Origin: a virus
Direction: 5' to 3' (one strand)
DNA: 37,452 bases
IMG/VR virus record: IMGVR_UViG_3300044825_001317
Span: 1 to 37,452 of that record
The notes beneath the pieces are model-generated. The model saw only the letters and a list, made by a program, of their open reading frames with translations, did not search any database and was not told where the DNA came from. Shown here one piece after another: positions 1,956-17,843 of the stretch. Every line of letters starts with the position of its first letter. The first letter of the stretch is position 1. Both the position numbers and the translations under genes were made by a program.

Positions 1956-3680
1956 CTACACTGGATACAGCGGAGCCATCCCGGTGTTGCCTTCAAAGCG
2001 CATACTGTTCTCGACCTCAGCGGACCACTCTTCCGTTCGGAGGATCATGCCTGTATCTCGGAGGTGGCGTAAAGCCATTGACACCGTATCGACCAAATCG
2101 TCGTGCTTCCCCTTGGGAAACTGGCCGACTTGGTTGATAACCATGTCTGACCAGCTCTTAAACGGGGCAAAAACCAGCCCTTCGGCAAACAAATGCTGGA
2201 TGCTATAGAGCCTGGCCAGCTTGTCCTGCGATTTTGGGTCAAAAAGGGTCAATCCGAAGCGCGATCCGCCGAAAAGACGGCGTAATTCCTGCGCAACCGA
2301 GTGTCCGGCGGCTTTATTTTCAATTAAAAGATTGTCAACCTTGTACCTTTGGCACGTTTCGGCGACTTGGGTGACCAAATCGTGCAATTCATACCGCCCC
2401 TGCCATGCGTACATGAGCATTACGCGGGGTTGGGTCTCGGTATAAGCTCTTGATACCTCTACACGGCCCTGTCCATGGCGCGCACCGGCGTGCCCAGCGG
2501 CCTGAACGGTCACATCTGAGCTAAAAACGCCCCAAACGGTTAGCGCGGACGGGTCATTTTCCGTTTTTGTCGTGTAGGCGGTGTCCAAGGACGCAATAAT
2601 CATGTCCATATTCGGGTAAATGCTGCTTTCCCAAGGCTGCCACCACTCTCTTTTAATGATTCCGCCGCCTTTTGGCTCAGGGCGCTGCTGCAATTGCCCG
2701 GCAGAGGTCCACGGACCCATCTGTTTTTCCAGAATACCGACTTCGCGCTCGCCAAAACGCTCTGGCCAGAGCAACGCACCCTCTCTGCGCTCCAGTTCCA
2801 TCTGCGCTTCGGGGCTGACAGCCAGCCTTTCGCCGTCATTGGTCACTTCGACCAGCGGATTACCGTCGTCATCCAGTCCCCTAGGGTCGTCCCAGCCCAG
2901 AACCGTATGGGAATGACGCTGCCATTCGTAGCGCATGGGCAGGCAGAGGTGGGTCCACGACCCGGAATCCTTGGAAAGGATGTGCCCGGTCAGGTCTTCT
3001 TCGCTCAGTCTCTGCTGAATGACAATGAACGCGCCACTCTTGGGGTCATTAAGACGGGTGGAGAGGGCGTTGTCCCACCATTCTATAGTGGCTTGGATGG
3101 TCGCCTCTGAGAACGCCTCCTGAGCGGCATTTGGATCGTCCACGATAATGATGTTGCCGCCCTCGCCAGTAAGGGCCGAGCCTACCGACGTGCTCAGACG
3201 GGAGCCGTTATGATCGTTGTCAAAGCGCGTTTTGGTGTTCTGATCGCCCGTAAGCTTGAAACGGTCGCCCCAACGCTTCTGATACCAAGGACTTTCAATC
3301 AGGCGACGGCACTTGACGCTATCCCTGAGCGAAAGCTGCTGGGCGTAGGAGGCCGTTAAGAACTGGACACCCGGCCCGGAGGTCGGCGTCTTCCATGGCT
3401 GAGCCCACGTCCATGCCGGAAAAGCCACCGACACCAAGCTGGACTTGGCGCAGCGGGGCGGAATGTTGACAATCAGGCGCCTGATCTCGCCGTCAGCCAC
3501 CGCCTGCAAGTGCTCTGCGACGGCTTCAATCGGCCAGCCATGAACAAACGGGGACGAGTCTATGTGCTGCCACCCACCTTGCAGGAAGGTGTAGAGACTG
3601 TCTTCGCAATCTACACGGTCCAGCTCCAAGAGCTGTTCATCAATGTTAATGTTCTGTCCGTCTAGTTGCAGAATTGCCAC
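1956..3680 (-). CDS. Terminase large subunit (packaging ATPase/nuclease)
   Basis: This is a 574-residue large terminase, the motor that pumps DNA through the portal and cuts the concatemer. The N-terminal ATPase carries a Walker A-like segment PPRCAKS at residues 74-80 and a Walker B segment IIIVDDP at 177-183. The C-terminal RNase H-like nuclease shows acidic positions in SLDTAYT (D366), LLIENKA (E454) and KHDDLVD (D527/D528). Length and domain order match typical TerL proteins. The Walker A is the degenerate kind seen in many terminases, with Cys-Ala where Gly-x-Gly might be expected. The matching small subunit lies 7.3 kb upstream at 10939-11610, an unusually long separation. Confidence 0.95.
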   Translation of the reverse strand: MAILQLDGQNINIDEQLLELDRVDCEDSLYTFLQGGWQHIDSSPFVHGWPIEAVAEHLQAVADGEIRRLIVNIPPRCAKSSLVSVAFPAWTWAQPWKTPTSGPGVQFLTASYAQQLSLRDSVKCRRLIESPWYQKRWGDRFKLTGDQNTKTRFDNDHNGSRLSTSVGSALTGEGGNIIIVDDPNAAQEAFSEATIQATIEWWDNALSTRLNDPKSGAFIVIQQRLSEEDLTGHILSKDSGSWTHLCLPMRYEWQRHSHTVLGWDDPRGLDDDGNPLVEVTNDGERLAVSPEAQMELERREGALLWPERFGEREVGILEKQMGPWTSAGQLQQRPEPKGGGIIKREWWQPWESSIYPNMDMIIASLDTAYTTKTENDPSALTVWGVFSSDVTVQAAGHAGARHGQGRVEVSRAYTETQPRVMLMYAWQGRYELHDLVTQVAETCQRYKVDNLLIENKAAGHSVAQELRRLFGGSRFGLTLFDPKSQDKLARLYSIQHLFAEGLVFAPFKSWSDMVINQVGQFPKGKHDDLVDTVSMALRHLRDTGMILRTEEWSAEVENSMRFEGNTGMAPLYPV

Positions 3681-10631: not shown

Positions 10632-10774
10632 GGGGACCCGGACGCGGATTTTGTGGAGATTTACGCGGAGGGGTGGAGCCTCAGTCTGACGGGGCGGCCT
10701 TCTATTGGACGGGGGCACCCCTGGCTTTTCCGAGGTACCTTAAACTTAGCATTGATCTTGATCTGCGCTGTCAA

Positions 10775-10872
10775 TCGCCCGGCAACGCATTAACAAATGA
10801 TAGTTTGGTCAAGTCTAGATCAATCGCCCCGCCCACCTATCGCCCGGCAACGCCCGGAACGCCCGGCAATGC
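10775..10872. repeat. Repeats of CGCCCGGCAACGC
   Basis: TCGCCCGGCAACGC at 10775-10788 recurs at 10840-10853, followed directly by two shorter variants (CGCCCGGAACGC and GCCCGGCAATGC). Three near-copies follow each other with a spacing of about ten bases, roughly one helical turn. Such phased GC-rich repeats suit a multi-subunit DNA-binding protein. Confidence 0.5.
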
Positions 10873-10938
10873 GCCACGCAAGGCCAACAATAGGCGACAA
10901 GGGAAGGCGACTGTTTACAAAGGAAACTTTCGGGGGGG

Positions 10939-11610
10939 CTAAGTATCGCCTACCGGCTTTGCGCCTATCGCACGGGCTTCCAAGAGCATTCCGCGCAGTC
11001 TGTCCCGGTCCTCTGGCGCTATGTCACGCGCAGATATGACAACGTTATTGGTTACATTGTTAATCGTTGTTGCGTCGCGGTGGGCGTCGCCTTCTGCAAT
11101 CCTGCTATTGTAAAGCCGTGGCGCGGCCTTTTCAGCGTACCATTTGAACGCGTCTACCAGAATGCGAACGGCTGGCGCGTTGTCCTCTGTCGCCGTTTTT
11201 GCAGCAGAAACAACATGATGGGCGGCGTGCTCGCCGAAGCCCATGCGTGCGCGTGCGTATAGCGCAGCAAAGTCGGGGCGTGTTTCAATCCAATAATACA
11301 CCACCATGCGCGTCGGCATGTCTGGCGAGCTGTCGCAAATATCAATCAGTGTCTCGCCCATGCAAAGGCGTTCGCAGATCTCATGGGCTATCTCGTCACT
11401 ATATGGGAACGTCACAGGCCTTCCCATTTTGGCCTGACGTGCGACGCCTTGCTTAGCGCTATCCTTTACGGTCGCGACAACATGCTTAAGGGCTGCGCTA
11501 TACTCGGCATGCTTCGGCCCCTTGCGCCTATTCGGATTGATCAGGCTGCGCTCGCTTTCCGGTATATCGGCCGCCGCGCCAGTCGAGCCGCGCGCTTTTT
11601 TTCCCGCCAT
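10939..11610 (-). CDS. Terminase small subunit, Sf6/P22-like
   Basis: This 223-residue protein has a variable basic N-terminus and then YSDEIAHEICERLCMGETL and DICDSSPDMPTRMVVYYW, an HTH typical of Sf6-like small terminases (ICERL-x-x-GE-T/S-L...). Next comes an oligomerisation-type helical region (YARARMGFGEHAAHHVVSAA) and a C-terminal tail. Small terminases recognise the packaging site and load the large subunit. The start at 11610 is chosen by family length, although its Shine-Dalgarno sequence is weak and a TTG at 11643 is possible. The large subunit is 7.3 kb away at 1956-3680. Confidence 0.72.
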   Translation of the reverse strand: MAGKKARGSTGAAADIPESERSLINPNRRKGPKHAEYSAALKHVVATVKDSAKQGVARQAKMGRPVTFPYSDEIAHEICERLCMGETLIDICDSSPDMPTRMVVYYWIETRPDFAALYARARMGFGEHAAHHVVSAAKTATEDNAPAVRILVDAFKWYAEKAAPRLYNSRIAEGDAHRDATTINNVTNNVVISARDIAPEDRDRLRGMLLEARAIGAKPVGDT

Positions 11611-11667
11611 ATCAAAAGCCTGTAGAGAATTGCCCCTGCGCAATCATAGCCTGCAAACGATTCCCGA

Positions 11668-11700
11668 CAAAAGAAAAAGCCCCGACACTTGATCGGGGCT
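11668..11700 (-). terminator. Rho-independent terminator
   Basis: On the - strand AGCCCCGA (11700-11693) and TCGGGGCT (11685-11678) form an eight-base-pair stem around a seven-base loop, directly followed by TTTTTCTTTT. This is a textbook terminator. It ends the leftward transcript carrying the genes at 11783-12986 just before the small terminase gene, so that gene must have its own promoter or depend on readthrough. Confidence 0.85.
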
Positions 11701-11782
11701 TCTAAGTCTCACGCTATTAGCAAGGCTATCGCCCATGCAAGTAATAGCAAAGGCCAAGGTATTTTGGGCGCAGCATGGTGAC

Positions 11783-12031
11783 TCATGAGCAAGACTCCAT
11801 GAGCGCAATGCCAAGCCGCATCGGCCCGCCTTCCCATGATACCTTTTCGCCTCGGTCGCGCAGTACCATGATACGCGCCAGCGCAGCGCGCTTGCTAGTG
11901 GCCACGCTATGGCGCGTCCAGTCTTGCCCCATTGTGACTTGCCCCGAAGCGCTAATCACAAAAACACGAGTCTGGATATCCCATTGGCGCGGCTTTGCGC
12001 CCCGAACGATTCGCCATTCATGCTTAATCAT
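11783..12031 (-). CDS. Hypothetical protein
   Basis: The 82-residue product contains WDIQTRVFVISASGQVTMG and a helical segment SKRAALARIMVLRDRGEKV. A beta-then-helix layout suggests a small folded domain but no family is recognised. An AAGGAG Shine-Dalgarno sequence sits eight bases before the start at 12031. It is the last gene before the terminator at 11668-11700. The 171 bases between the small terminase start and this gene hold only that terminator and nothing else recognisable. Confidence 0.55.
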   Translation of the reverse strand: MIKHEWRIVRGAKPRQWDIQTRVFVISASGQVTMGQDWTRHSVATSKRAALARIMVLRDRGEKVSWEGGPMRLGIALMESCS

Positions 12032-12042
12032 GCTGCGACTCC

Positions 12043-12246
12043 TTATCCCTTATCGCTTAGCTTTAGTTTTGTGACGCATGAACGCGGGGCTTGCATAGAG
12101 TGAACCGGCCCATCAGTGAACCAAAGCCGGACAGTCGCGCCCCCGTTGTCCTCGACGATGCAGCGGCGCTTATCTAAATCGTGCAAGGGCTGCAACGTGC
12201 TAGGTTGATTCACGAACGCCCGATAAATTGCGCGCGCTTCGCTCAT
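12043..12246 (-). CDS. Hypothetical protein
   Basis: Sixty-seven residues, with RAIYRAFVNQPSTLQPLHDL near the N-terminus and a beta-rich part VRLWFTDGPVHSM. Its ATG overlaps the stop of the GP88-like gene as ATGA, so it is translated with that gene. No motif or family is recognised. Confidence 0.55.
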   Translation of the reverse strand: MSEARAIYRAFVNQPSTLQPLHDLDKRRCIVEDNGGATVRLWFTDGPVHSMQAPRSCVTKLKLSDKG

Positions 12247-12986
12247 GCTGCGCCCCCACCGATCACAAAACCGCTGCGGTCGCGCTTAGCCTTGCGACCC
12301 TTCGGCGATAGGCCAATGATTGCCCCCGCAGGCTGCAGGTGAATCAAGTCGTGAGTATCGCCATTCACGACAGCCGCGCCAAGGTAGTGCGCAGGCAAGC
12401 CGTCCTTAAATACCGCAGCGACCTTATGCCCCGCCTGCAAAGCGCGCTCGCATTCGGGCTCATTGGACTCCGTGCGGCTTAGCACAAGGCACAAATTCGG
12501 CGGCAAAGCGCGGTAAAGCCGCGAAGCTATTTTCGTGTAGTCTACGAATTGCAACGCGGGAAAAGCCGCATAGACCGAAGCGAATTTAGTTCCGCCGCGC
12601 TCGCAAGCGATACCTTCCCATGCGATATCAGTCGAGCCGTTCAACCGCACGCAAAGCTTAAGGCCAAGGCGTTCGGCTTGCTTTTCCGCATTTTCAATGG
12701 CGCGTACCACGTCGCGCATATATTCAGCGCGGCTTTTCATAAAGCGCTGCGCTTTTTGAATGCGACTGGCGCGAACGGAATTCAGATCTGACTCCTGCGC
12801 CACCATTGCCGCTTGGCCACTATACCATCCAAGGCAAAGCGCTTTGCAGGATTCCGTGGCCTTCGGACATAGATTCCCGACTCCCGCTAACGTAGCAGGC
12901 GCCATGTAGTGAATAGCGTTTAGCCATCCAAAGCCGCGTGCCTTTACCGCCTTAGCGCTATCCATAGAGAAGATTCTATTCTGCAT
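12243..12986 (-). CDS. GP88/DUF7227-like phage protein
   Basis: This 247-residue protein has NLCPKATESCKALCLGW near the N-terminus, a central LCVRLNGSTDIAWE, then FVDYTK and LVLSRTESNE segments, and a late GLSPKGRKAKRDRSGF ending. That combination matches a widespread phage family annotated as gene product 88 or DUF7227. Three closely spaced cysteines near residues 40-51 suggest a metal or disulfide site. A TIM-barrel-like alternation of strands and helices is plausible. The role is unknown. The start has an AGGAG Shine-Dalgarno sequence and a candidate promoter at 13073-13044. Confidence 0.75.
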   Translation of the reverse strand: MQNRIFSMDSAKAVKARGFGWLNAIHYMAPATLAGVGNLCPKATESCKALCLGWYSGQAAMVAQESDLNSVRASRIQKAQRFMKSRAEYMRDVVRAIENAEKQAERLGLKLCVRLNGSTDIAWEGIACERGGTKFASVYAAFPALQFVDYTKIASRLYRALPPNLCLVLSRTESNEPECERALQAGHKVAAVFKDGLPAHYLGAAVVNGDTHDLIHLQPAGAIIGLSPKGRKAKRDRSGFVIGGGAA

Positions 12987-13043
12987 TGTCGTAACTCCTA
13001 TCGTTTATTGTTTAGTTCAAGCGCGATTAGTGCGCGCAAGACT

Positions 13044-13073
13044 TTTATCGCATGAGACGGCTTTACTTGTCAA
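13044..13073 (-). promoter_or_regulatory. Candidate promoter of the 12986-11783 operon
   Basis: A perfect TTGACA (13073-13068 on the - strand) is followed by an 18-base spacer and GATAAA (13049-13044), which matches four of six positions of the -10 consensus. It lies about 58 bases upstream of the GP88-like start. With the rightward promoter at 13338 it forms a divergent pair around the repeats. Confidence 0.55.
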
Positions 13074-13090
13074 CAAATCTCGCCGACCTG

Positions 13091-13209
13091 GCGAATATTC
13101 GCTGCGAATTGCCGGCGAATTAAACGCGCGCAACATACTGAATCTAAACAATAAACGGCAACTTAAGCCAAGCGCTAACGTAAAATCGCCGCGAATTGCC
13201 GACAATTGC
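13091..13209. repeat. Palindrome and GCGAATT(GCC) repeats in the divergent region
   Basis: GCGAATATTCGC at 13091-13102 is a perfect 12-bp palindrome. GCGAATT follows at 13104-13110 and 13115-13121, and GCGAATTGCC recurs at 13191-13200 followed by a related ACAATTGCC. The region is locally AT-richer than its surroundings. Palindromes and direct repeats beside an iteron-like array are typical of phage origins and operators. Confidence 0.5.
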
Positions 13210-13213
13210 CGTC

Positions 13214-13384
13214 TGACCATTGACCATCTGACCACTGCCCTGGCGTATGACCATCTGACCACTGACCATCTGACCATTGGCATGACCACTAGGCGTGACC
13301 CATGACCCATGACCATCTGACCACTGAACATGACCACTTGACATGACCACTTAACTTGTTAATCTGACCACCGTCATCTGACCA
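13214..13384 (+). repeat. Array of TGACCA/TGACCC repeats
   Basis: The hexamer TGACC(A/C) occurs about 16 times in 171 bases, starting at 13214, 13221, 13229, 13248, 13256, 13263, 13271, 13283, 13296, 13303, 13310, 13318, 13331, 13344, 13365 and 13379. Typical spacing is 7-8 or 12-14 bases. Many copies lie within a longer unit TGACCATCTGACCACTG. The density is far above chance. It is upstream of a rightward operon, so iterons for a replication initiator or a cooperative operator are the main possibilities. Confidence 0.85.
13338..13365 (+). promoter_or_regulatory. Candidate promoter of the rightward 13399-14877 operon
   Basis: TTGACA (13338-13343) is followed by a 16-base spacer and TAATCT (13360-13365), about 34 bases before the first start. 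It lies inside the TGACCA array, so a protein binding these repeats would regulate it. The -35 is perfect and the -10 weak. Confidence 0.4.
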
Positions 13385-13398
13385 CTGGAGATATGCAA

Positions 13399-13686
13399 AT
13401 GGATATGCTTCCTCGTGACATCGTAGACCTGTGCGGGATCGTAATGGGCGCCCCTGCCCCTGCCTGTACCCGCAGAGGCGTAGACCCATCCCCCCTGACC
13501 ATGACCCAAGAAGACGACGGGATCTACACCCTGTCCTACCGTGGGGCCGTGCTGGGCTGGATTGGATCGCTGGGGACTGACCGGACCGAGGGGAAAGCGT
13601 ACAGGGCGATCACTGCCTCTGGCGCGGTCCATCATTGCTACTCATTGGCCACGGCCAAGAACACCATCATCGCAGCCGCAATCTAA
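13399..13686 (+). CDS. Hypothetical protein
   Basis: A 95-residue protein with DMLPRDIVDLCGIVMGAPA, a central beta-rich QEDDGIYTLSYRGAVLGWIG and an end with AITASGAVHHCYSLATAKN. The ATG at 13399 is preferred over the one at 13393 because CTGGAG then stands at the right distance. It is the first gene of a rightward operon that includes a cytosine methyltransferase. No family is recognised. Confidence 0.55.
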   Translation: MDMLPRDIVDLCGIVMGAPAPACTRRGVDPSPLTMTQEDDGIYTLSYRGAVLGWIGSLGTDRTEGKAYRAITASGAVHHCYSLATAKNTIIAAAI

Positions 13687-13697
13687 GGAGAATGACC

Positions 13698-13913
13698 ATG
13701 GACGATGATATGATCTACGAAACCTTCGCCGCCGAATATGACGCATTTCTGGAAATGAACCCGGACTTAGACAAACTAGACGGTAGCGCAGAAGAAATGC
13801 TGATGTTCTGTCTTGACCTGAACCCTCGCCAGAGGGCGTGGTTGGAAGACTTCTGCGCCCGATTTGACGCCGCGATGGAACAATCCATCGACCACGCGAA
13901 AGAACTGGAGTGA
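13698..13913 (+). CDS. Small acidic protein
   Basis: Seventy-one residues, strongly acidic and helical: MDDDMIYETFAAEYDAFLEM, then EEMLMFCLDLNPRQRAWLED. The start at 13698 has an AAGGAG at the proper distance, while the ATG at 13692 is too close. Acidic helical proteins of this size can be DNA mimics or anti-defence inhibitors. Nothing beyond composition supports that here. Confidence 0.55.
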   Translation: MDDDMIYETFAAEYDAFLEMNPDLDKLDGSAEEMLMFCLDLNPRQRAWLEDFCARFDAAMEQSIDHAKELE

Positions 13914-13918
13914 TAGCT

Positions 13919-14287
13919 ATGGTTAAGAACAAGTTCGACCCGAAAGAACCAGTCAAGTTCCGCGACGCGCCCGAGAAGGTGCGCGTTCTGGCGACAGATC
14001 TGAAGTCTGACCGTCCTATCATCATCGCCACGATGAAACCTGATGGGACAGAATGGTGGGGTCGCAGATATCCTGATGGTCGGCTTGAGCACGACCGAGA
14101 TAGTGACTACGACCTTGTGAACGTGCCGAGGGAGCACGAGGTGTGGATCAATTTGTACGACAGTAAAGACGGAATTGGTAGGTTTTATGGTTTTGCGTAC
14201 TCGTCGCGAGAAACCGCAGATGAAATCTTTGGCGCCAATCGCACTGCCTGCGTCCGCGTCAAATTCACCGAGGGAGAGGGGCTGTGA
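13919..14287 (+). CDS. Hypothetical protein
   Basis: The 122-residue product has a basic N-terminus (MVKNKFDPKEPVKFRDAP), a beta-rich core (PIIIATMKPDGTEWWGRRYP) and a C-terminal DEIFGANRTACVRVKFTEG. A GGAG sequence lies eight bases before the ATG at 13919. It overlaps the methyltransferase start (GTG) by four bases, so the two are translated together. No family recognised. Confidence 0.55.
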   Translation: MVKNKFDPKEPVKFRDAPEKVRVLATDLKSDRPIIIATMKPDGTEWWGRRYPDGRLEHDRDSDYDLVNVPREHEVWINLYDSKDGIGRFYGFAYSSRETADEIFGANRTACVRVKFTEGEGL

Positions 14288-14877
14288 AGGTTCTTATAGC
14301 CTGCGAGTTTAGCGGGACCGTGCGGGACGCCTTTCGTGCCCTTGGGCATGAGGCCGTCTCGTGCGACCTTCTGCCAACGCTTAAGCCCGGCTCCCACTAC
14401 GAAGGCGACGTTCGGGACATCCTGAACGCCAACTGGGATCTGATGATCGCTCACCCGCCCTGTACCTACCTGTCAGCCAGCGGCTTACACTGGAACAAAC
14501 GCAAACCAGAACGCGCTGCCCTGACTGAAGAGGCTATAGCCTTCGTGAAGCTTCTAGCTGAGGCGCCTATCCCCAAGATTGCCATAGAGAACCCGATAGG
14601 CTGCCTCTCCACCCGCTGGCGCAAGCCGGACCAATGGATACAACCATATCAATTCGGGGATGATGCCAGCAAGGCAACCTGCTTATGGCTCAAGGGGCTA
14701 CCCCTTCTGGAAAAGACAGGCTACTTCCCCCCTCGTGTTGTCGAAGGGAAGCTGCGCTGGGGCAACCAGACTGACAGCGGACAGAATAGGCTTGGGCCAT
14801 CCAAGGACCGATGGGCCAAACGGTCCATCACATATCCGGGCATAGCCAAAGCGATGGCTGAACAGTGGGGGGCTTGA
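14284..14877 (+). CDS. Cytosine-5 type DNA methyltransferase-like protein
   Basis: This 197-residue protein starts with a GTG that overlaps the preceding stop. It has an N-terminal SAM-binding strand and loop (VLIACEFSGTVRDAF), the catalytic PPC motif at residues 58-60 within HPPCTYLSAS and an ENP motif at 102-104 (IENPIG). PPC plus ENP in this order is the C5-cytosine methyltransferase signature. The protein is much shorter than typical DNA methyltransferases (300-400 residues), so the target-recognition domain is reduced. It probably protects phage DNA or marks it. Some phage proteins in this family are annotated only as SAM-dependent methyltransferases. Confidence 0.75.
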   Translation: MKVLIACEFSGTVRDAFRALGHEAVSCDLLPTLKPGSHYEGDVRDILNANWDLMIAHPPCTYLSASGLHWNKRKPERAALTEEAIAFVKLLAEAPIPKIAIENPIGCLSTRWRKPDQWIQPYQFGDDASKATCLWLKGLPLLEKTGYFPPRVVEGKLRWGNQTDSGQNRLGPSKDRWAKRSITYPGIAKAMAEQWGA

Positions 14878-14890
14878 TGCCCCCCTTTTT
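14867..14890 (+). terminator. Rho-independent terminator
   Basis: GGGGGGC (14867-14873) and GCCCCCC (14879-14885) form a seven-base-pair stem with a five-base loop followed by TTTTT. The stop codon of the methyltransferase is inside the hairpin. It ends the rightward 13399-14877 operon, and the convergent primase gene stops just after it. Confidence 0.85.
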
Positions 14891-15827
14891 ATTTGACCAA
14901 TCGCAGTGACGGCTTGGGCATAGTGGACCGATGAACATCGTTCCAATCCTCGCCAACCTCCGGCGGAATCAGCACTTCCACGTCCAGCTTGTGCTGGACC
15001 GAAAGCCGGTTGGCCAGATGATACGCTTTGGCCTGACCCGAGAAATTCGCATCGTTGTCCGCGAATATTAAAATTCGCCGGGCGATTTTCGGCGGCTCCC
15101 ACTTGGCGAGGATCGTCTTGTTGATGCACGCCCAGACCGGCACCCCGTATAGGATGGATGCGCTCAGGGCTGTTTCTATCCCTTCCGCAACCCCCATAAC
15201 CTCCGCAGCCGGTGACAGCCTTATGGCGCAACCGTCCGGCAACTTGCCCGGCATAACCCGGCGCTGCTTCTCCACCGACGCCTTCTGACCGTCAGGCGTT
15301 AACAAGGTGATGTGCAGATTGACTGCCCGGTCGTCATGTGTGACCACCTTGGCAACCATGGCTGGGTGGCTTCTTCCATCAGAGAAAACACCAGTATGCT
15401 CTCTGAGCGCATTAGAAGGCCATGGACGGCCAATGCGTGCTCTCAGGTACCTGACAGCCGCCCCATCGTCAGACAGGCTTCCTGAGCTTTCCCAGAGGCG
15501 GCGCATGGCATTCCGCTGCTGCACCTCCTCCGGGTCCGCGGCCCTGGGGATGATAGGCCGCTCGACGCCCAGCAACCGCTCCACCTCCGCGGCGATGTCC
15601 ACGAACGCCTTGCCGGTCACATTGCTGGCGAGGTTGAAGCCGTCTCCAGCCCCGCACGAATTGCAGATGTACCCGCCGCCGTCGTGCTGATTATCCCAGC
15701 GGAAGCGGTCTGCCCCGCCGCAGATGGGGCATGGACCATGGCTGTTCTTCAGGAACCTGCTGTCCACGCCTAAGGCAGGAAGCAGCATTCGCCAATGACC
15801 CCGCGCCAGATCAGAAAGCTTCGTCAT
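14889..15827 (-). CDS. DNA primase with zinc ribbon and Toprim domain
   Basis: A 312-residue primase. A zinc ribbon with Cys33, Cys36, Cys55 and Cys58 (CPICGG and CNSCGAG) sits near the N-terminus and recognises the template. The Toprim domain shows GVAEGIETALSA (Glu215) and the acidic FADND at 255-259, the catalytic metal sites. The start at 15827 overlaps the helicase stop as ATGA, so primase and helicase are translated together. The C-terminal DnaB-type helicase of T7 gp4 is absent; the separate SF2 helicase next door may partly take its place. Confidence 0.9.
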   Translation of the reverse strand: MTKLSDLARGHWRMLLPALGVDSRFLKNSHGPCPICGGADRFRWDNQHDGGGYICNSCGAGDGFNLASNVTGKAFVDIAAEVERLLGVERPIIPRAADPEEVQQRNAMRRLWESSGSLSDDGAAVRYLRARIGRPWPSNALREHTGVFSDGRSHPAMVAKVVTHDDRAVNLHITLLTPDGQKASVEKQRRVMPGKLPDGCAIRLSPAAEVMGVAEGIETALSASILYGVPVWACINKTILAKWEPPKIARRILIFADNDANFSGQAKAYHLANRLSVQHKLDVEVLIPPEVGEDWNDVHRSTMPKPSLRLVK

Positions 15828-17299
15828 GCCACCCTCCCCGTCTTCTCGCGGCGCTTGGCCTTCTTGATGTTGTAGTGCCTGATCCAAGCCTCAGTCTCTG
15901 GGCTAATCATGCGAGCCATGCGCTTGCCGAACGAATTAGACGGACCCGCGCCGAACCTGTCCTTGTAAGCCCAATAGGCCCAGCCGTGCTTGTAGCCCCG
16001 CATGAAAGCGTGAAGCAGCAGCTCACTGTAGAACACGCTCTTCTTGTGCGCTGGCCAGTCTTGGACCTTCAGTTTCTTGTCGCGGGTTAACTCGTGCAGG
16101 TCGCCCTCTTCGACATCCACCTGTGACTTCGCCTCTGGGACGAAACCGCACGCTGCGCATACCCGCATCTTCGGCGGCCTCAAGAAGCTGCACTTAGGGC
16201 ACTCCTTGGGAAGCGGCAGCGTCTTGGCGGACGATGCCTTCTTCTGACCATCGTCCAGCTCAGGCTTGGATATGTCGGTGACGAAGCCCAAGCGCAGCGT
16301 AGTGTCGCTATGGTCAAGGATAAGGCAGTAGTCTTTGCCCGGAGCGGTCCTGAGCCCTCGCCCAATCATCTGGACGAAAAGAATCTCTGACTTCGTAGGC
16401 CGCGCCAGAATGATGCAGCGAACATCTGCGTCGAAGCCGGTCGTCAGGACGCCCACGTTGCAGATGATCTTAGTCTGTCCAGATTGGAATCGTTCTACGA
16501 TTTCGTTCCGCTCGTGCCTGTCGGTGTAGGCGTCCATGTACTCGGCCACGACGCCCGCCTCTTGGAACAGGGTCTGAATGTGCTTTGCGTGGACCCGGTT
16601 GACGGCGAAGCAGATCGTCGGACGGTTCTCGCCCTTCTCCAGCCATGTTGACACGATGTCAGCGACCAGCGGGCGCTTGTCCATGGCGTCACCCAGTCCA
16701 CGCAGATCGTAGTCCCCGGCGAGAGTCTTGACCCCGCCAAGGTCGGGATGAGACGGAGCGAAGGTCTTAAAATCGGATAAATGCCCCCTGTTAATCAGAT
16801 CCTGAGTCGTCGTGCAGACGATCAGCTTGTCCCAGCGGCCTTCTGCCCCCATGCCCTTGGACCAAGGTGTCGCGGTCAGGCCGACGAACGGGACGCGCTC
16901 CCACGCTGCGTTCTGCATCCACTTGTCGTAGATCTTGAACATGACGTGAGCCTCATCGACGATGACCAGATCAGCCATCGGGATGGTTCGCCGCGCCAGC
17001 GTTTGGACCGAGCAGACCTGCACAGGCTGGTGACGATCCGTCATCTCGTGCGCGCCCTGCATCACCCCGATGTCGTGGATGCCGACGCCACGGAACCGCT
17101 CGACGGTCTGGTCGATTAGGCTGATGGCTGGGACGGTAAAGATTACCCGCTTACCCTTCTCACGGGCCATGCGAATGATCTCAGCGGCGAGGATGGTCTT
17201 TCCCGCGCCAGTGGGAGCCTGAATGACGGGCCTCCTGGACCCCTGCCTCAGCGCCTCTCTCAGTTGGTCGATAGCCCCGACCTGATAGTCTCTTAGCAT
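15824..17299 (-). CDS. SF2 DEAH-type helicase with C-terminal zinc ribbon
   Basis: A 491-residue superfamily 2 helicase. Motif I is APTGAGKT at residues 28-35, motif II DEAH at 115-118, motif III TATP at 142-145 and motif VI QMIGRGLR at 310-317. A four-cysteine ribbon (C367, C370, C381, C384) follows, then a unique C-terminal helical domain. This is the phage recombination/replication-remodelling type of helicase. ATP-dependent unwinding or branch migration is expected. The start has a TGGAG Shine-Dalgarno sequence. It is cotranscribed with the primase. Confidence 0.92.
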   Translation of the reverse strand: MLRDYQVGAIDQLREALRQGSRRPVIQAPTGAGKTILAAEIIRMAREKGKRVIFTVPAISLIDQTVERFRGVGIHDIGVMQGAHEMTDRHQPVQVCSVQTLARRTIPMADLVIVDEAHVMFKIYDKWMQNAAWERVPFVGLTATPWSKGMGAEGRWDKLIVCTTTQDLINRGHLSDFKTFAPSHPDLGGVKTLAGDYDLRGLGDAMDKRPLVADIVSTWLEKGENRPTICFAVNRVHAKHIQTLFQEAGVVAEYMDAYTDRHERNEIVERFQSGQTKIICNVGVLTTGFDADVRCIILARPTKSEILFVQMIGRGLRTAPGKDYCLILDHSDTTLRLGFVTDISKPELDDGQKKASSAKTLPLPKECPKCSFLRPPKMRVCAACGFVPEAKSQVDVEEGDLHELTRDKKLKVQDWPAHKKSVFYSELLLHAFMRGYKHGWAYWAYKDRFGAGPSNSFGKRMARMISPETEAWIRHYNIKKAKRREKTGRVA

Positions 17300-17367: not shown

Positions 17368-17736
17368 TCAACCTCTGGCGCGGAATCTTAATATGTTGGT
17401 ACTCCTGTTTAACGGTAACCGTTTATGGCACTCTATTGGAGTGGGGGGGCACTCTATTGGAGTGGGGGTGGCCCCAACTGCCAAGATAAAGATATTGGAC
17501 GATTGCCCATAGGACTTTATCTGCGCTTCCCTCCTGACAAGCCCAAGCTTCTGAAGGTTAACTACAGCCTTCCTCGCCTGTGCCTGCGACATCCCACAGT
17601 CATCTGCCAGCTTAGAGATCGACGGGAAGCATGAGTTGGTTTTAGGGTCAGCCCGGTTGGCTAACATCATCAGGGCTATCTTTTCGGGCCAACGAAGCTT
17701 TATTTCTGAGGCCCAGCTTAAGGCTTTGTAGGACAT
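17368..17736 (-). CDS. Helix-turn-helix protein, phage replication/regulatory type
   Basis: The 122-residue protein begins MSYKALSWASEIKLRW and has a winged-helix HTH core (CFPSISKLADDCGMSQAQAR, then LQKLGLVRREA). This is the HTH_36-type layout common to phage replication initiators and regulators. It stands directly upstream of the helicase and primase, which supports a replication role. A longer start at 17814 is possible but would include an operator-like dyad, so 17736 with its CGGAG sequence is preferred. The C-terminus carries a small tandem repeat (TPIEC twice). Confidence 0.7.
   Translation of the reverse strand: MSYKALSWASEIKLRWPEKIALMMLANRADPKTNSCFPSISKLADDCGMSQAQARKAVVNLQKLGLVRREAQIKSYGQSSNIFILAVGATPTPIECPPTPIECHKRLPLNRSTNILRFRARG
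17429..17464 (+). repeat. Two 21-base tandem repeats with internal dyad
   Basis: CACTCTATTGGAGTG occurs at 17429-17443 and again at 17450-17464, 21 bases apart. Each copy is itself an inverted repeat (CACTC/GAGTG). On the - strand it lies in the C-terminal coding part of the HTH gene, encoding TPIEC twice. It may be a simple in-frame duplication or a binding site for the protein itself. Confidence 0.6.
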
Positions 17737-17782
17737 TGACGAACGTCTCCGAATATTCCGGGACGCCGACGCTTGCCAATTA

Positions 17783-17812
17783 GGCTGAACAGCTATATTA
17801 ATTTGTTCAGCC
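17783..17812. promoter_or_regulatory. Operator-like dyad upstream of the HTH gene
   Basis: GGCTGAACA (17783-17791) and TGTTCAGCC (17804-17812) are a perfect nine-base inverted repeat around a 12-base AT-rich centre. It lies about 47 bases upstream of the HTH start at 17736. Its symmetry and AT-rich spacer are typical of a dimeric repressor site, possibly autoregulation by the HTH protein. Confidence 0.55.
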
Positions 17813-17843
17813 AACCGGCTTTGCGAGCGGCGGTTGGGGACCG

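Follow-up and report, generated by a model that had tools for sequence, protein, structure and literature searches.

The DNA analysed here carries, beside divergent genes, a real, non-random and functional-looking cluster of short sites: an array of TGACC(A/C) units whose position is conserved among related phages while the sequence of the unit is not. Each phage's own unit is also in excess on one strand through the adjacent operon and on into the primase gene, which has the opposite direction of transcription; outside this block the unit is depleted. We tentatively favour the reading that the array acts in cis as a DNA element of the primase/replication block, composed of oriented short recognition sites that a sequence-specific factor would read; its main rival is an operator or stoperator cluster. 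The window, by which we mean the whole stretch of 37,452 bases, is a tailed-phage record by its PHROG matches, and has the following organization.

1956-3680, - strand: terminase large subunit (PHROG match)
10939-11643, - strand: terminase small subunit, terS (PHROG match)
12243-12986, - strand: GP88 family gene, phrog_1617, divergent neighbour of the array (PHROG match)
13214-13384, + strand: array of 16 TGACC(A/C) units in a single orientation (sequence, TRF)
13393-13686, + strand: orfA (ATG at 13393 or 13399), small conserved protein of an LPRxIADLxGI family
13692-13913, + strand: orfB, no family match
13910/13919-14287, + strand: orfC, no family match
14284-14877, + strand: DNA methyltransferase (MTase), phrog_757, final gene of the rightward operon (PHROG match)
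14867-14885, + strand: strong intrinsic terminator that closes the rightward operon
14889-15887, - strand: primase, phrog_510, P4-alpha-like N-terminal part (PHROG match)
15824-17299, - strand: SF2-type helicase, outside the motif zone described below (PHROG match)
17368-17814, - strand: O-like initiator gene (PHROG match)

The array sits between the leftward GP88-family gene and the rightward operon orfA-orfB-orfC-MTase (13393-14877); this operon and the primase gene are convergent. A gene for a Cro-like protein is directed leftward and genes for Erf and an exonuclease rightward (PHROG matches). The orfA product matched neither Pfam nor PHROG, and no cultured relative emerged from searches with the phage DNA and with orfA; the nearest proteins of cultured phages reach 43% at best for the helicase and 38% for the primase.

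Within 13214-13383, TGACC occurs 16 times on the + strand, 14 times as TGACCA, and never on the - strand. The copies start at 13214, 13221, 13229, 13248, 13256, 13263, 13271, 13283, 13296, 13303, 13310, 13318, 13331, 13344, 13365 and 13379, i.e. at spacings of 7, 8, 19, 8, 7, 8, 12, 13, 7, 7, 8, 13, 13, 21 and 14. The dense array described in the earlier note is thereby confirmed, as are its recurring spacings of 7-8 and 12-14 bases, to which 19-21 must be added. In 2,000 dinucleotide shuffles of the array's own 171 bases the mean was 2.9 and the maximum 9 copies, and the densest other stretch of 171 bp outside 13000-13400 holds 3. TRF also detects the array (period 7, 20 copies, 66% matches), and its spacings show no 10.5-bp phase (R = 0.12). 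The array is non-coding in the window, because orfA homologues align at their N-termini, and its end directly precedes the ribosome-binding site of orfA. The - strand is free of TGACC over 4.8 kb around the array (10808-15614; p 0.019).

Relatives were gathered from scans of viral contigs and genomes, which gave several hundred loci, and a z-score repeat scan covered the window and 56 representative loci. In 33 of the 56 representatives (counted from the table, L207 included) an array lies at or upstream of the orfA operon or the equivalent of this operon next to the primase gene, and an array so positioned is usually the strongest repeat of its locus; some of the 23 array-less representatives end early on the array side. 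Among 75 further non-redundant contigs (L303 upward), 52 had a primase hit and enough sequence to the left, and of these 6 carry an array and 46 do not; 10 were too short, and 13 without a primase hit were left uncounted. The arrays are 170-600 bp long, made of pentamer or octamer units with many 4-bp and 7/8-bp tandems, and nearly all are one-stranded. Instead of the TGACC of the window, the units of the relatives are TGGTT, TGGTC, CGGTC, TGGTG, GGACC, TGGTA, CGGTT, CGGAC and TGCCA, and a GGT or ACC core is present in 8 of 10 unit groups (pentamers) and in 6 of 6 new arrays. Conservation in relatives, to which the earlier note had looked, thus holds for the position of the array and fails for its sequence.

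The change of unit can occur between close relatives, and unrelated units are found even where helicase and primase are about 86-94% identical. The loci L175 and L176 on the one hand and L213 on the other have helicases that are 88-89% and primases that are 86-94% identical, with CGGAC, CGGTC and TGCCA as their respective units; the L213 and L176 primases are 94.5% identical despite TGCCA in one phage and CGGTC in the other. In L175 and L176 the array is found inside orfA, not before it, and L176 orfA has CGGTC where the aligned L213 codons differ, mostly synonymously (as read by eye). Arrays show no general association with GP88 in other phages. In L187, L213, L182, L191 and L194, a small leftward ORF encoding a hydrophobic peptide (e.g. 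MTDIQILILAGFMFIGLPLGI) lies amid the array region upstream of orfA; no such ORF was seen in the window. Short-site arrays are usually recognised by their conserved spelling, and one that stays in place while its word changes is easily put down to slippage.

The distribution of the unit beyond the array was analysed in 29 loci, i.e. the 33 array-bearing loci (window and 32 others) minus L240 and L205, which are near-duplicates, and L187 and L180, which have no clear unit. Pentamer units were hand-picked from the arrays and form ten unit groups. Across the 29 arrays, the own unit is enriched on the array strand for about 2.8 kb downstream and depleted upstream, and in 27 of 29 loci its count at 0-2 kb downstream exceeds expectation. 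On the array strand, 137 copies against 67.7 expected were counted in the operon, 100 against 41.4 in the primase gene and 45 against 61.9 in the helicase gene; the corresponding counts on the other strand are 62 against 60.1, 34 against 39.2 and 39 against 45.8. Permutation of the unit labels among the ten groups gave a 2.02-fold excess in the operon (p 0.002) and a 2.41-fold excess in the primase gene (p 0.002), no effect in the helicase gene, and depletion to 0.38-fold in the 2 kb upstream (p 0.01). In a second, independent control, synonymous codons were drawn from the locus's own usage. Against this null, the array strand has 100 copies versus 43.9 in the primase gene (p <= 0.003; 23 of 29 loci), with counts at or above the null in all ten unit groups (summed by hand), and 31 versus 17.0 in the MTase gene (p <= 0.003). 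The other strand shows no significant effect (34 versus 29.3 in the primase gene), nor do the helicase gene (0.95) and that of the second methyltransferase, MT2 (0.97), and the own unit is depleted in the O gene (2 versus 8.1), RusA (0 versus 5.1) and terS (8 versus 14.4). A codon test of orfA, counting both strands, gave p < 0.05 in 10 of 19 loci.

The same pattern is seen in the window itself, where copies fall within orfA at 13496, 13502 and 13578 and, on the + strand, within the primase gene at 14894, 15034, 15286, 15341 and 15796.

13385-15887, + strand: motif zone with 11 TGACC on the + strand (3.7 expected, p 0.0015) and 1 on the - strand (3.8 expected)

The loci do not contribute evenly. 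The primase excess owes much to the TGGTT group, and in the closest pair, L176 and L213, the primase genes barely differ in CGGTC (6 versus 5), the excess being common to both. In the six new loci the primase gene has 15 copies against 5.8 on the array strand and 5 against 5.8 on the other, and the helicase gene 6 against 8.1; this primase result is carried by L410 (11 against 2.2, i.e. 11 of the 15 copies), in L309 both strands of the primase gene show an excess, and in L316 a zone is absent.

One explanation for such arrays is that they are neutral satellites, in which slippage, unequal exchange and short-patch conversion, perhaps via Erf and the exonuclease, homogenise a functionless array until each lineage has fixed its own unit. 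The uniformity of the unit within a phage, its difference between phages, the many 4-bp and 7/8-bp tandems and the intrusion of arrays into the orfA coding sequence are all of this kind. The explanation is nevertheless unlikely in view of the conserved place, the frequent GGT/ACC core, and an excess that reaches synonymous sites at distances of 1-3 kb, is confined to one strand, is accompanied by depletion outside the zone, and leaves helicase and MT2 unaffected. Plain slippage is insufficient because tandem expansion neither puts copies at synonymous sites at least 1 kb away on one strand nor removes others, and the distant excess and the depletion elsewhere bear out the earlier note in expecting more than slippage-derived repeats. 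A one-strand synonymous spread that halts at a gene border provides a measurable indication that site density is under selection at the DNA level.

The excess crosses the strong terminator, and its orientation relative to transcription is reversed in the primase gene, the unit being sense in the MTase gene and antisense in the primase gene. This bears on the idea of an RNA-level element, in which an RNA-binding protein would recognise repeated sites on the transcript of one direction or the other. Strand specificity of the excess would be expected from such an element, but the array is upstream of the promoter in many phages and the terminator stops the rightward RNA before the primase gene, which makes it an improbable explanation. 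Since the zone crosses the terminator and enters a gene transcribed in the opposite direction, action on DNA rather than RNA is suggested.

The flanks contain the palindrome and the GCGAATT repeats (13104, 13115 and 13191) listed in the earlier note, together with further elements.

13002-13015 and 13144-13157: arms of a perfect 14-nt inverted repeat
13044-13073, - strand: putative leftward promoter, -35 TTGACA read leftward from 13073 (read from sequence)
13091-13102: perfect dyad GCGAATATTCGC
13338-13365, + strand: putative rightward promoter, TTGACA (13338), 16 bp, TAATCT (13360), overlapping the right part of the array (read from sequence)

The spacer of the putative rightward promoter holds a dyad, TTAACTTGTTAA (13351-13362). 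A consensus promoter scan detected neither the rightward nor the leftward promoter, and the pair of divergent promoters is therefore weaker than had been stated. The rightward one is credible, mainly because relatives read by eye have a clear, stronger promoter at the matching place, again with a dyad in the spacer.

The array might accordingly be an operator or stoperator-like cluster, in which a repressor or roadblock protein would bind at the rightward promoter and at weaker sites downstream and control the orfA-MTase operon, with a specificity that differs by immunity type. We regard this as possible, if doubtful. In the loci read by eye the array surrounds the promoter of the orfA operon, the unit orientation follows rightward transcription, and the excess begins at the array and extends downstream only. 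The stoperators of cluster A mycobacteriophages (L5, Bxb1) are likewise many, short, asymmetric and mostly in one orientation, and their consensus varies among related phages, in some cases even though the HTH is identical (PMC6550527). They are 13-bp sites dispersed over the genome, unlike the single packed array of 170-600 bp with a zone of about 3 kb entering the opposite gene, for which we found no repressor. The cooperative operator envisaged in the earlier note thus keeps some plausibility, against which stand the lack of 10.5-bp phasing, the failure of Cro and the small HTH proteins to co-vary with the unit, the array inside orfA in L175 and L176, and an excess that is equally strong in the opposite primase gene past the strong terminator. 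Inspection of 20 regions revealed no common dyad that would indicate an operator shared with the cro-erf region.

That the array represents iterons of a replication origin, bound by the HTH protein encoded at 17368-17736 as the earlier note proposed, is an idea that we all but discard. Dense direct repeats less than 4 kb from replication genes would suit it, and lambda-type O iterons are direct repeats near O, primase and helicase genes. Here their counterpart is found in the O gene itself, about 4 kb from the array.

17427-17468: pair of perfect 21-bp repeats GGCACTCTATTGGAGTGGGGG with dyad, within the O-like gene, candidate replication origin

These 21-bp repeats have a lambda-like origin layout; of 24 O genes examined (window included), 11 have repeats of 15-21 nt at a spacing of 21-27 bp in the gene or its 3' flank. 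O and the array are uncoupled, the same array being combined with swapped O in L168/L170 and L173/L174, and near-identical O with different arrays in L175/L213. The GC skew, suggested as a check in the earlier note, has no turn at 13.3 kb and a cumulative minimum near 20-21 kb, where the direction of transcription switches.

Phage P4 has, besides its origin, a second cis region that is needed for replication, and both ori and crr carry octamer iterons of the alpha protein. The window is similar in having an alpha-related primase (32.5% to the N-terminus of P4 alpha), short iterons and what may be a second cis element some kb from the origin. It differs in that the O iterons and the array units are unrelated, and its primase presumably lacks the C-terminal DNA-binding part of P4 alpha. 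The array could also serve a plasmid-like prophage as a partition site or centromere, and long arrays of 7/8-bp direct repeats do resemble parS of pSM19035, which consists of 7-bp repeats bound by an RHH protein (omega/ParB), at least four contiguous copies being needed (PMC9499535). By comparison, the array has mixed spacings (7, 8, 12-14, 19-21) and a unit that is not conserved; a ParA or RHH match was absent among the proteins searched, a set that covered the small ORFs in part, and the motif excess in the primase gene is not predicted. We consider partition very unlikely.

Candidates for a factor that reads the array were sought by co-variation with the unit (p-values uncorrected). None was seen for the primase, O (partial r -0.05, p 0.67), Cro (14 loci) or a small HTH protein (21 loci), and it was weak for MT2 (partial r 0.24, p 0.04) and orfA (r 0.20, p 0.06). 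The orfA product was rejected as a DNA-binding protein; AlphaFold2 predicts a small alpha/beta protein (mean pLDDT 76, pTM 0.55) with no PDB match at E <= 0.001. A repressor that tracks the unit may lie outside the loci compared. T7-like primase sites and Chi-like sites were also rejected: they share the GGT core of the arrays, but the window has it on the opposite strand to most phages, and close primases go with different units.

Returning to the cis-acting element that we favour, a sequence-specific factor would read the array as DNA and act from it toward the primase gene. From the array as far as the 5' end of the primase gene, same-strand copies would be retained, and flanking genes would be kept clear of them; the word would drift or be replaced fast, giving each phage lineage its own spelling. 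Our best guess is that it forms a second zone of initiation or loading, on the path of the leftward fork and 1.5-4 kb away from the origin in the O gene. That the array is read by a factor, that this happens on DNA rather than RNA, and that it serves replication are each suggested by sequence patterns. A role in replication or priming is favoured by the extension of the zone into the primase gene, an operator by the constant place at a promoter, and the two are close readings.

In parts the array resembles known site arrays, but the swapping of units and the one-strand, codon-level zone are not known from any of these, and the literature searched, a partial, open-licence coverage, yielded no description of such arrays. 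One speculative possibility is that they constitute a new class of phage cis-element, fixed in place, variable in spelling and oriented, whose word is imposed synonymously on one strand across a block of 1-3 kb, up to the primase start. The reader would be a polar DNA machine, e.g. for priming, fork loading or strand-marking, with a specificity that changes quickly between near-identical phages. The spread of the own word predicts a recognition factor, and makes specificity switching between close relatives testable.

Some further features were noted. A 4,072-base contig (L303) matches the window in helicase (99%), O, the second methyltransferase, the 18668 protein and Cro (100% identical) and stops short of the array. 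A second array site lies beside the 3' end of terS, at 10720-10940 in the window (CGCCCGGCAA-type) and with TTAGT-type units in L173, L174, L184 and L214. In L176 (8970-9840) and L187 (12100-12420), both numbered on the reverse complement of the locus, hundreds of apparently non-coding bases between the second methyltransferase and Cro consist almost entirely of G-poor pentamers NN[AG][AC]C with a period of 5.
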